The notes under the pieces: model-generated
Told to the model about the DNA's origin: nothing
What the model saw: only the letters and a program-made list of their open reading frames with translations
Database searches by the model: none
Position numbers and translations under genes: made by a program
Part shown: in pieces, positions 1,302 through 6,580 of the stretch
Position numbering within the stretch: position 1 is the first letter of the stretch
Layout of the letters: each line of letters begins with the position of its first letter
Source: a candidate division KSB1 bacterium
GTDB taxonomy: Bacteria > Zhuqueibacterota > JdFR-76 > DREG01
Direction of reading: 5' to 3'
NCBI GenBank assembly: GCA_022566355.1
Contig: JADFJB010000174.1
Coordinates: forward strand, 1 to 6,580
DNA: 6,580 nucleotides

Positions 1302-2234
1302 ATGAAACAATCTGATATTCTAAACAAATTCTTCGATGGTGACCGGCTTGCATTAGCGCGTATGATTACCAAAGCCGAGAATAGTCACAATTCCCGTGAT
1401 CCTGTTCTTGATGAAGTGTTAAAGCAAAGCAAAGGTTCATTCCGCATAGGAGTTACAGGCCCACCTGGCGCCGGTAAAAGTACACTTTTGGACAGAATGG
1501 TTGTTCAATTTCGTCAAGATGGGAAAACGGTGGGGGTGATTGCTGTCGATCCAACCAGCCCATTTACAGGAGGAGCTATACTGGGTGATCGTATTCGCAT
1601 GAACTCGATTCAGCAAGATCCGGGAGTTTTTATTCGCAGTATGGCAACGAGAGGGAGTTTGGGAGGATTGGCTCATACTACCCAGGAAATTGCAGATGTA
1701 TTTGATTCTTTTGGCAAAGATATTATTTTTATAGAAACAGTTGGTGTCGGCCAATCAGAATTGGATGTGGTGCAGGCTGCAGACACGATTTTGGTGGTTT
1801 TGGTGCCCGAATCCGGTGACAGCATTCAAGCAATGAAAGCCGGTTTGATGGAAATCGCCGATATTTTTGTATTAAACAAATCCGATCATGAATATGCAAA
1901 ACGCGCTTATACGGACTTAAATTCGGTTTTACATTTAAATCGATCTCATAATGGCTGGTGGCCATCAATCGTCCAAACAGTTGCAAATACCGGAGAAGGC
2001 TTTGATAAATTATTTGAACAGCTGACAAAGCATAAGGCCTATTTGGAAGATAATAATGTTTTGGAAAATAAAAGACGAGAAAGGACACATGATCGTCTGA
2101 AATCCAAGGTGAATCAAAAAATATTTAAACAATTTTGGAATCCGAAAAAACTTGTAGATTTTGAACAATATATCGAAGAAATTTTGAATGGAAAACTATC
2201 TTATAACGAAGCGTTGGAGAAAATTTTGAAATGA
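1302..2234 (+). CDS. meaB: MeaB-family GTPase, chaperone of B12-dependent acyl-CoA mutase (ArgK family)
   Basis: The 310-aa protein belongs to the SIMIBI-class G3E/MeaB GTPases, which gate adenosylcobalamin loading and protect acyl-CoA mutases from inactivation in the cytosol. Motifs in order: Walker A GPPGAGKST at 53-61; the switch region DPTSPFTGGAILGDRIRM at 83-100, characteristic of MeaB/ArgK; a Walker B-like segment FIETVGVGQSE at 143-153; the base-specificity motif NKSD at 192-195; and NTGEG at 229-233. A charged helical C-terminal arm from about 245 fits the dimerisation arm of the family. Length is slightly below the roughly 330 aa usual. The ATG at 1302 is fixed by an in-frame TAA at 1296-1298; only a weak purine stretch precedes it. 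The mutase subunits follow on the same strand, supporting the chaperone role. Confidence 0.95.
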   Translation: MKQSDILNKFFDGDRLALARMITKAENSHNSRDPVLDEVLKQSKGSFRIGVTGPPGAGKSTLLDRMVVQFRQDGKTVGVIAVDPTSPFTGGAILGDRIRMNSIQQDPGVFIRSMATRGSLGGLAHTTQEIADVFDSFGKDIIFIETVGVGQSELDVVQAADTILVVLVPESGDSIQAMKAGLMEIADIFVLNKSDHEYAKRAYTDLNSVLHLNRSHNGWWPSIVQTVANTGEGFDKLFEQLTKHKAYLEDNNVLENKRRERTHDRLKSKVNQKIFKQFWNPKKLVDFEQYIEEILNGKLSYNEALEKILK

Positions 2235-2432: not shown

Positions 2433-4094
2433 ATGATAGATCCTACAAAGTTTAAAGTAGAAAAAGAAAGATGGGAAAAGGACAAGCAGACCAAAGGTAA
2501 AGACCGGAAGAAGAAATTTGTTACCACTTCTTCTATGGAAATTGAGGATTTGTACACGCCGGATGATCTTGAAAATATCGATTACAATCGGGATATTGGA
2601 TTCCCGGGCGAATATCCATATACTCGCGGTGTTCATCATAATATGTATCGCGGCAAATTGTGGACAATGCGTCAATTTGCCGGATTTGCCAGTCCTAAAG
2701 ATACCAATGAAAGATTCCATTACCTGTTAGAACATGGCCAAACCGGTCTTTCAACCGCCTTTGATTTACCCACATTAATGGGTTATGATTCGGATGATCC
2801 GATGAGCAAAGGAGAGGTGGGAGTTTGCGGGGTTGCAATAGACACTCTTGATGATATGGAAATTTTATTTAAGGGAATCCCATTAGATAAAGTAAGCACT
2901 TCCATGACCATTAACTCTCCAGCTGCAATGATACTAGCAATGTATTTTGCCGTTGCAGAAAAACAAGGTGTGCCTAAGGATAAAATACGCGGAACAGTTC
3001 AAAATGACATTTTAAAAGAATACATTGCTCAGAAAGAATATATATTTCCTCCTGGCCAATCCATGCGTATCATTATGGATATGATGGAATATTGTACACA
3101 GGAAGTGCCTCAATGGAACACGATTTCTATCAGTGGATATCATATTCGCGAAGCAGGTTCTACGGCAGTGCAGGAGCTTGCATTTACATTGGCCGATGGT
3201 TTTGCTTATGTGGAAGCTGCGATAAAGGTGGGAATGGATATTGATGATTTTGCTCCCCGACTATCTTTCTTTTTCAATGCCCACCTTGATTTCTTTGAGG
3301 AAATTGCTAAATACAGAGCAGCAAGAAGAATTTGGGCTCGGCACATGCGTGAGCGTTATAAAGCAAAAAACCCAAAGTCCTGGTTGTTGCGTTTTCATAC
3401 ACAAACGGCTGGCTGTTCTTTAACCGCTCAGCAACCTGAAAACAATATTGTTCGCACAGCTTGCCAAGCTCTTGCCGGTGTGTTGGGAGGCACACAATCA
3501 CTCCATACTAATTCTATGGACGAAACATGGGCATTGCCATCTGAAAAAGCTGCAAAAATTGCTTTGCGAACCCAACAAATTATTGCCCATGAAACCGGTG
3601 TGTCCAATACCATAGATCCACTGGCAGGATCCTATTTTGTTGAATCTCTAACAACGAAAATGGAGGAGGAAGCCGAAAAGTATTTTGAGAAGATTAAAGA
3701 ACTGGGCGGCGTTATTTCCGCTATAGAATTGGGATATTTCCAGAGAGAAATTTCTAAGGCCGCATCACTTTATCAGCAAGAAATTGATTCTAATGAAAGG
3801 ATCATAGTCGGTGTTAATGAATATGTTGAAGTAGAAGAAAAAATCGAAATCCCAATTTTAAGAATAGACCCCCAGGTAGAAAAGGATCAAATAAAAGCGT
3901 TGCAACAAATTAGAGCGCAAAGAAGTGATACAGAGGCTCAATCAAGTCTTTCCGGTTTGCGAGAGAGTGCAATTCATGGCAATAATATGATGCCGCACTT
4001 ACTGGCATGTGCCAGAAATTATGTTACAATTGGTGAGATGGTGCAAGTTTTACGTGAGGAATTTGGCGAGTACCTGGAGGCAGCGACTTTTTAA
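2433..4094 (+). CDS. Acyl-CoA mutase large (catalytic) subunit, methylmalonyl-CoA mutase family with isobutyryl-CoA mutase-type pocket
   Basis: The 553-aa protein is the TIM-barrel, acyl-CoA-binding part of a B12-dependent carbon-skeleton mutase. The B12 domain is a separate gene downstream, as in two-part IcmA/IcmB or archaeal-type mutases. Landmarks: charged N-terminal tail 1-33; [15 protein letters not shown] at 71-85; [15 protein letters not shown] at 109-123; [10 protein letters not shown] at 188-197; SGYHIREAG at 234-242; FHTQTAG at 321-327; the family signature region RTQQIIAHE...DPLAGS at 379-400. Aligning to Propionibacterium mutase by the conserved Gln197, Tyr243 and His244 (here Gln190, Tyr236, His237) gives a constant offset of 7. 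With that offset Tyr89 and Arg207, which hold the methylmalonyl carboxylate, become Phe82 and Gln200. Isobutyryl-CoA mutase has Phe and Gln there, so the usual 'methylmalonyl-CoA mutase' label may be wrong on substrate. Ala109 is not the Asp of 2-hydroxyisobutyryl-CoA mutase. Family is certain; substrate is inferred. Confidence 0.93.
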
Positions 4095-4261: not shown

Positions 4262-4675
4262 ATGACAGATCGGAAAATCAGGGTTCTGATTGCTAAACCC
4301 GGGTTGGATGGACATGATCGTGGTGCGAAAGTAATAGCCGGCGCTCTTCGTGATGCTGGCATGGAAGTTATTTATTTAGGATTAAGACAAACAGCTGAGA
4401 TGATTGTCGAAGCTGCTTTGCAAGAAGATGTGGATGTAATCGGGTTAAGCATTTTGTCAGGAGCTCATATGACGATCTTCCCTGATGTGAAAAAGAAACT
4501 AGACGATGCCGGATTGAATGATGTTTTACTTACGGGAGGCGGCATCATAGCTAAGGAAGATGCCGAAGATCTGACCAAACTTGGGGTGGGTAAGTTATTT
4601 GGGCCTGGCACAAATACATCGGCAATCATTGAATATATCAAGGAATGGCACTCTAAAAAAACAAAGTCTGATTAA
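4262..4675 (+). CDS. Cobalamin-binding small subunit of B12-dependent acyl-CoA mutase
   Basis: The 137-aa protein is a stand-alone Rossmann-like B12-binding domain. It supplies adenosylcobalamin to the large subunit, whose barrel caps the cofactor. The base-off/His-on motif DxHxxG is DGHDRGAK at 16-23, with His18 as the cobalt ligand. The second conserved stretch is GLSILSGAH at 61-69 (the SxL motif is Ser63-Leu65), and the third is TGGGI at 91-95, lining the nucleotide tail of the cofactor. The length matches separate small subunits such as IcmB (about 136 aa) and the C-terminal domain of fused methylmalonyl-CoA mutases. The start has a good Shine-Dalgarno. The stop is followed after four bases by the ATG of the carboxyltransferase, so those two genes are tightly linked. 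The sequence of this domain does not reveal which acyl-CoA is used. Confidence 0.95.
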
Positions 4676-4679
4676 AACT

Positions 4680-6230
4680 ATGGCAATCGATCCAAGAATT
4701 GAAAATCTACGCAAGTTAAAGTCTCAAGCATTATTAGGGGGTGGACAAAAAAGAATTGATACTCAACACAAAAAAGGTAAATTAAGCGCGAGAGAGCGGA
4801 TCAACCTGCTCCTGGACGAAAACAGCTTTGAAGAAATTGATATGCTGGTACGTCACAGCAGCCGTGATTTTGACCTGGATAAACAACGTTATTTCGGTGA
4901 CGGTGTAATCATCGGATACGGTACCATCAATGGGAGAAAAATATTCGTTTTTTCCCAGGATTTTACTGTTCTTGGCGGCTCTCTTTCGGAATCGCACGGC
5001 AAGAAAATTTGCAAATTAATGGACCTGGCCTTAAAAAACGGTGCTCCAATTATTGGCCTGAACGATTCTGGTGGCGCGAGGATTCAGGAAGGTGTGGTTA
5101 GTCTTGGAGCCTATGCGGATATTTTTCTGCGCAATACTTTGGCTTCCGGAGTCATTCCCCAGATTTCAGTAATTTTAGGGCCCTGTGCCGGTGGTGCAGT
5201 ATATTCGCCTGCCATTACGGACTTTGTTTTCATGGTTAAAAATAACAGCTACATGTTTGTAACGGGTCCAAATGTTGTAAAAACAGTTACGCATGAGGAG
5301 GTTTCTTTCGAAGACTTGGGTGGTGCTGAAACTCATGCAACCAAAAGTGGAATAGCTCATTTAATCTCAGAAAATGAAGTTGACTTACTTGAGCGTGTTA
5401 GAGAATTGATGCAATATCTGCCGCAAAATAATCTAGACGATCCGATAACAGAGGAAAACGATGACGATCCGAGTAGAGTTGACGATACGCTGAATACTAT
5501 AGTTCCTGAAAATTCCAATAAATCGTATGATGTTAAAGAAGTACTGTTTCGAGTTTTTGACGACGGTAAATTTTTTGAAATACATGAATATTTTGCCCAA
5601 AATATCGTCGTCGGTTTTGCACATCTTAATGGTTCACCTGTAGGAATTGTTGCAAATCAACCTGCATTTTTGGCAGGTGTGTTGGATATCAATTCATCCA
5701 TTAAAGCAGGGAGGTTTGTTCGTTTCTGTGATGCTTTTAATATCCCGATAATCACATTTGTAGATGTGCCTGGATTTTTGCCGGGAACCGATCAGGAATG
5801 GGGCGGAATCATCCGAAATGGCGCCAAATTGTTATATGCTTATTGTGAAGCAACGGTACCAAAAATTACTGTGATTCTTAGAAAAGCCTATGGCGGTGCT
5901 TATGATGTTATGAGTAGTAAACACATCAGGGGTGATGTTAACCTTGCATGGCCATCTGCTGAAATTGCGGTTATGGGTCCGAAAGGCGCTGTTGAGATCA
6001 TATTTCGCAAAGAGATCGAAGAATCGAAAGATCGACTGAAGACAACTGAAGAAATGGCTAGTCAATACCGGGAAAAATTTGCAAATCCTTATATCGCAGC
6101 CGAACGTGGATATATAGATGATGTGATTGAACCGTCAGAAACTCGGCCTAAATTAATCAAGGCTCTCGAAATGACCAAAAATAAGGTCGACCAAAATCCA
6201 AGAAAGAAACACGGAAATATTCCACTTTAA
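4680..6230 (+). CDS. pccB: Acyl-CoA carboxylase carboxyltransferase (beta) subunit, probably propionyl-CoA carboxylase
   Basis: The 516-aa protein is the biotin-dependent carboxyltransferase that moves CO2 from carboxybiotin to an acyl-CoA. It has two crotonase-fold halves. The N half holds SGGARIQEG at 130-138 and [12 protein letters not shown] at 168-179. The C half holds VDVPGFLPG at 361-369 and [11 protein letters not shown] at 401-411, with the Gly-Ala oxyanion pair at 406-407. Asp409 corresponds to Asp422 of Streptomyces PccB, a residue linked to preference for propionyl-CoA. The C-terminus KKHGNIPL is typical of PccB. I chose the ATG at 4680: [14 protein letters not shown] begins the family-like N-terminus, while an in-frame ATG at 4581 would add 33 residues overlapping the B12-subunit gene. 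There is no Shine-Dalgarno and only a 4-nt gap, so coupling is likely. The biotin carboxylase and biotin carrier partners are not in the window. Confidence 0.9.
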
Positions 6231-6493: not shown

Positions 6494-6580
6494 ATGCAAT
6501 CCAATGAATTTCATGTCATAGTGGTAGGTGGCGGACCCGCCGGTTCAACTTGTGCGGCGTTATTAAGCAAAGCCGGTTTG
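6494..6580 (+). CDS. FAD-dependent oxidoreductase, N-terminus only (cut by window end)
   Basis: Twenty-nine codons are visible, beginning MQSNEFHVIVVGGGPAGSTC and ending AALLSKAGL. A short beta-strand leads into GGGPAGS at residues 12-18, the dinucleotide-binding GxGxxG loop that holds the ADP part of FAD, followed by the first helix. The 'GGGPAGSTCAALL' style is typical of the geranylgeranyl reductase / FixC / flavin-dependent halogenase group of monooxygenase-like flavoproteins, but 29 residues cannot place it further. No Shine-Dalgarno precedes the ATG. The 263-bp gap and a hairpin after the carboxyltransferase suggest a separate transcription unit. Confidence 0.85.
   Translation, partial: MQSNEFHVIVVGGGPAGSTCAALLSKAGL

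Follow-up and report, generated by a model that had tools for sequence, protein, structure and literature searches.

A putative isobutyryl-CoA-mutase-type subunit in a candidate division KSB1 bacterium, and a B12-binding subunit that may be common to two mutases

Known acyl-CoA mutases and the KSB1 locus

Mutases of this family use radical chemistry to shift the CoA-thioester group from one carbon to the next. Their small subunit is charged with adenosylcobalamin by MeaB and docks on the barrel of the large subunit. Isobutyryl-CoA mutase (ICM) of Streptomyces cinnamonensis, IcmA/IcmB (EC 5.4.99.13), has separate large and small subunits, as does the locus described here, and IcmA carries a Phe/Gln pair. 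The present operon differs from IcmA/IcmB by its meaB and PccB-like genes, and by the existence, elsewhere in the genome, of a Tyr/Arg paralogue lacking a small subunit. The fused enzyme IcmF (4XC6) shares Phe/Gln/Ala at the three diagnostic sites and Leu at site 115 with our protein, but unites B12, G-protein and mutase domains in one chain where three genes are found here; in the part of the mutase that was compared, the two are 41% identical. Methylmalonyl-CoA mutase (MCM; 1REQ, human MMUT and the split Tyr/Arg enzymes) belongs to the same family and has the same partners, and the protein under study is 43-45% identical to 1REQ and to the human enzyme; MCM, however, has Tyr/Arg at the carboxylate-binding sites and His or Gln at site 115, instead of Phe/Gln and Leu. 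The closest solved sequence is that of 2-hydroxyisobutyryl-CoA mutase (HCM; 4R3U, 554 bits, 49% identity), which likewise has Gln at site 200 and Leu at site 115, but Ile and Asp in place of Phe82 and Ala109. Finally, the ICM cluster Slip_0757-0760, assigned by genome analysis in the isobutyrate-degrading syntroph Syntrophothermus lipocalidus (PMC5017805), also has its mutase divided into subunits and encodes a MeaB-like protein, but contains an adenosyltransferase where the present operon contains PccB.

The stretch of DNA analyzed, hereafter the window, is a whole contig of 6580 bases (C174) from a draft genome of 4.62 Mb (213 contigs, 98.5% complete). Its forward strand encodes meaB, a G-protein chaperone for the loading of adenosylcobalamin onto the mutase (1302..2234; TIGR00750, 334.9 bits for a cut-off of 240.75; PF03308, 304.5 bits), the putative ICM-type large, substrate-binding subunit (2433..4094, an intact frame of 553 aa; PF01642, 762.7 bits), a B12-binding small subunit of 137 aa (4262..4675; TIGR00640, 162.7 bits; PF02310, 92.3 bits) and a carboxyltransferase subunit of the PccB/MmdA type (4680..6230; TIGR01117, 806.3 bits, below the cut-off of 998.8; PF01039, 649.9 bits), whose ATG, as read from the sequence, lies 4 bases past the small-subunit stop. 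The mutase protein has no fused B12 domain of the kind found in ethylmalonyl-CoA mutase, and reached 382.6 bits against the fused-IcmF model NF045497 (cut-off 1500), so that it does not have the IcmF architecture. The large subunit would pair with the product of 4262-4675, itself loaded by the MeaB protein encoded at 1302-2234.

No RNA element, cobalamin riboswitch included, was detected in the window at Rfam gathering thresholds. The non-coding start of the contig holds about 12.6 tandem copies of a 7-bp unit (CATCCAG) at 291-386, and a 19-nt inverted repeat (1-19 / 154-172, 89% complementary) at the contig end. At the other extremity, an ORF start (6494-6580, MQSNEFHVIVVGGGPAGSTCAALLSKAGL) is truncated by the end of the contig, and its GGGPAG motif resembles that of FAD-binding oxidoreductases.

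Specificity residues and phylogenetic placement

A preliminary description of this DNA had placed Phe82 and Gln200 at the sites of MCM Tyr89 and Arg207, and had taken Ala109 as an argument against HCM. Both points were borne out by a MAFFT alignment with 1REQ, human MCM and 4R3U, where Phe82 (codon 2676..2678, forward strand, as are those below) stands opposite the MCM Tyr, Gln200 (3030..3032) opposite the MCM Arg, and Ala109 (2757..2759) opposite the HCM Asp. With 41-49% identity to solved mutases, neither of the two substrate sites is ambiguous in the alignment. Gln190, Tyr236 and His237 matched the invariant Gln, Tyr and His, and the constant offset of 7 deduced from them, as well as the spacing, is correct with respect to published numbering, because the chain-sequence index of 1REQ (88/206) runs one below the literature Tyr89/Arg207. 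The triplet at the three sites is Phe/Gln/Ala in both the window protein and IcmF 4XC6, versus Tyr/Arg/Ala in MCM and Ile/Gln/Asp in HCM, which upholds the earlier reading of an ICM-type rather than an MCM-type pair. In the deposited IcmF chain, the aligned columns hold Phe618, Gln762 and Ala646; subtraction of what is presumably a 20-residue tag gives Phe598/Gln742, which we take to be the literature numbers. An HCM identity was ruled out by residues (Phe82 and Ala109 instead of Ile/Val and Asp), as was a pivalyl-CoA mutase identity, Phe/Gln being found instead of the Leu/Asn of Xaut_5043, the protein we take to be that enzyme.

Four sites (82, 115, 200 and 201) fully separate 94 Phe/Gln proteins from 54 Tyr/Arg proteins, the window protein being excluded; the two classes were defined by these very residue pairs, whereas their separate clades in the tree were not. 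At each of the four, the window residue is of the Phe/Gln-class type. Leu115 (2775..2777) is ICM-like: IcmF and HCM also have Leu here, 1REQ has His, and the split Tyr/Arg enzymes have Gln. Phe and Gln were invariant in the 94 other members of their class, and Tyr and Arg in the 54 members of theirs. Chance or a frameshift as the source of the Phe/Gln pair was ruled out, the frame being intact and both sites invariant in 94 relatives. The substrate proposed here on the basis of residues follows a published rule, a Rhodospirillum enzyme having been assigned to MCM by its Tyr-92 and Arg-210, with citation of Jost et al. 2015 (PMC7238569).

The Phe/Gln pair is not rare, since it was present in 80 of 82 homologues (the window protein, its paralogue and the 80 best named matches), and named loci come from Ignavibacteria, Zixibacteria, Chloroflexi, Bacillota, Marinimicrobia, Deltaproteobacteria, Actinomycetota and some archaea, among others. 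A tree of 160 sequences grouped 93 Phe/Gln proteins, ours among them, in one clade with no intruder (support 0.91), and the split Tyr/Arg enzymes were placed apart from it. The sole proven ICM in this tree is the fused enzyme IcmF, which lies outside the clade, a point against the ICM-type assignment. The possibility, raised in the preliminary description, that the protein belongs to a clade of MCMs bearing Phe/Gln was checked: it sits in the all-Phe/Gln clade, away from the Tyr/Arg clade, and the genome has a separate Tyr/Arg paralogue, so that the ICM-type reading withstood this check. Streptomyces IcmA, looked for on plasmids as an anchor for the tree, was not found there, and the two Streptomyces plasmid mutases that were read are of the Tyr/Arg type. 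The window gene is thus a member of a known and widespread enzyme class.

Besides IcmF and its relative L238, one Bathyarchaeota mutase (L076, 5965-7647) and one haloarchaeal mutase (L102, 4875-6596) carry Phe/Gln yet fall outside the main clade, so that the pair may have more than one origin.

Substrate and gene neighbourhoods

Taken together, the residues and the tree make it quite probable that the gene at 2433-4094 encodes the ICM-type subunit of a two-subunit adenosylcobalamin mutase interconverting isobutyryl-CoA and n-butyryl-CoA, and they support the substrate interpretation of the first reading. From a mechanistic point of view, Phe82 and Gln200 would stand in place of the Tyr and Arg that grip the free carboxylate of methylmalonyl-CoA, and a monocarboxylic acyl-CoA would therefore be bound instead. 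Such a pocket is predicted to fit an uncharged alkyl end, allowing the conversion of isobutyryl-CoA to n-butyryl-CoA or the reverse, and n-butyryl-CoA could then feed beta-oxidation; the genome does encode a short-chain enoyl-CoA hydratase. The NCBIfam scores of the window protein and of its Tyr/Arg paralogue also shift in the way expected of an ICM-type and an MCM-type protein (646.8 versus 687.2 for the MCM model, 382.6 versus 336.5 for the IcmF model).

Gene neighbourhoods point the same way. Among genes on the same strand within 6 kb, and bearing in mind that related genomes are not independent, which gives p-values a purely descriptive role, methylmalonyl-CoA epimerase occurred near 1 of the 94 Phe/Gln genes versus 22 of the 54 Tyr/Arg genes. 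Conversely, acyl-CoA dehydrogenase (25/94 versus 1/54), 3-hydroxybutyryl-CoA dehydrogenase (10/94 versus 0/54) and thiolase (7/94 versus 0/54) were found beside the Phe/Gln genes, PccB being another neighbour of the Tyr/Arg ones. The trend is clear: butyryl-CoA oxidation is the context of Phe/Gln genes, and propionyl-CoA carboxylation that of Tyr/Arg genes.

The window is an exception among Phe/Gln loci, as it has PccB beside the mutase and no acyl-CoA dehydrogenase. This last gene of the operon, resembling an MCM-pathway partner, speaks against an ICM-type enzyme, and so does genome G002 (95% complete), in which no large subunit was found besides the Phe/Gln enzyme. Both observations would suit a methylmalonyl-CoA mutase that functions despite Phe/Gln, together with the PccB encoded behind it. 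We nevertheless regard such an enzyme as very improbable, given the presence of a Tyr/Arg paralogue in the genome, the scarcity of epimerase genes near the Phe/Gln class and the absence of the carboxylate-binding Arg from all of its members.

The main substrate could also be a different monocarboxylic acyl-CoA (isovaleryl-/pivalyl-CoA or 2-methylbutyryl-CoA, for example), isobutyryl-CoA being a minor one. Phe/Gln rules out dicarboxylates only, the clade is large and known from sequence, and IcmF also slowly turns over isovaleryl- and pivalyl-CoA. Such a preference seems unlikely, however, since the candidate pivalyl-CoA mutase Xaut_5043 has Leu/Asn, and since the 3-hydroxybutyryl-CoA dehydrogenase and thiolase genes adjoining Phe/Gln loci suit n-butyryl-CoA.

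The genome was also searched for the classical valine route, as an independent test. No clear candidate for 3-hydroxyisobutyryl-CoA hydrolase emerged, a short-chain enoyl-CoA hydratase giving the best match to PF16113; this test does not decide, because methylmalonate-semialdehyde dehydrogenase is present although the hydrolase is not evident. The search for an E1 dehydrogenase as a source of isobutyryl-CoA gave an ambiguous result.

One B12-binding subunit and two large subunits

A second large subunit, encoded on the reverse strand of contig C92 (L135, 9919-11601), has Tyr/Arg/Ala at the three sites and 58.5% identity to the window protein. By its residues, it is likely a real MCM. The genome also encodes a methylmalonyl-CoA epimerase, on contig C7, and with this Tyr/Arg paralogue an MCM would therefore be present apart from the window gene. 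A search of the 19 kb around the C92 gene found neither a B12-binding subunit nor meaB, epimerase or PccB. In the genome, the TIGR00640 cut-off was exceeded by one small subunit, that of the window; the other PF02310 matches belong to frames of 489-1238 aa, of which the longest is MetH-sized, the others being domains in frames of 489-534 aa.

On balance, we favour the interpretation that the small subunit of the window is common to the ICM-type and the C92 MCM-type large subunits. Lacking a small subunit of its own, the C92 enzyme would most likely borrow that of the operon, which would explain the PccB-type gene directly behind it; the B12-binding subunit and PccB of the operon probably serve the Tyr/Arg enzyme as well.

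The generality of this arrangement was assessed in 43 genomes in which both pairs were read directly, each having at least one Phe/Gln and at least one Tyr/Arg split large subunit; genomes with an unreadable pair, such as G048, G075, G077, G078 and G081, were left out. In 36 of the 43, a sample made up mostly of drafts and biased towards relatives of the window protein, one solo small subunit accompanied both large subunits, and a shared B12-binding subunit would be the simplest reading of this pattern. Two small subunits were found in the remaining seven (G001, which has a third large subunit, G008, G021, G066, G067, G071 and G072). The sole small subunit adjoins the Phe/Gln gene in relatives of the window protein and lies near the Tyr/Arg gene in G096, while in several Chloroflexi-type genomes (L221-L231, e.g., L223, 2355-3360) it stands alone with meaB, away from both large-subunit genes. 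In genomes whose MCM is a long chain that includes a B12 domain (e.g., G062, G065 and G069), a single solo partner was again found for the Phe/Gln subunit. The tree of small subunits gave no clean split by partner class, and therefore neither proves nor refutes sharing.

Alternatively, the C92 enzyme may be served by a dedicated small subunit that escaped detection, either through the draft state of the genome or through too great a sequence divergence. The assembly is indeed spread over 213 contigs, and in G008, G021, Carboxydothermus and Carboxydocella each of two small subunits lies beside its own large subunit. This is a real possibility, albeit the less probable one, as it has to be set against the 98.5% completeness of the genome, the 2:1 ratio of large to small subunits recurring in many lineages, the Chloroflexi-type loci remote from both large subunits, and the nature of the remaining B12-binding matches (a MetH-sized protein and domains of larger frames). 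Sharing of the small subunit was not described in the literature searched, in which coverage of subscription journals was thin; a report on the Chloroflexus genome lists three mut genes under MCM and does not state their pairing (PMC3150298). We are inclined, with some reserve, to view one B12-binding subunit as an interchangeable cofactor module for ICM-type and MCM-type large subunits, here and in many bacterial and some archaeal lineages.

These results matter for annotation. The preliminary description had warned that an automatic label would probably mislead as to the substrate, and the best NCBIfam match is in fact the generic "methylmalonyl-CoA mutase N-terminal domain"; ICMs annotated as MCM have been reported before (PMC7764203). 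Uncultured bacteria have many Phe/Gln mutases, to which general models give the name methylmalonyl-CoA mutase, so that pathway reconstructions based on gene counting can assume propionyl-CoA assimilation wrongly or count it twice, and can overlook the interconversion of isobutyrate and butyrate. If true, the use of one B12-binding subunit by two mutases would constitute a modular cofactor arrangement, and would alter the way in which subunit genes are paired in annotation.
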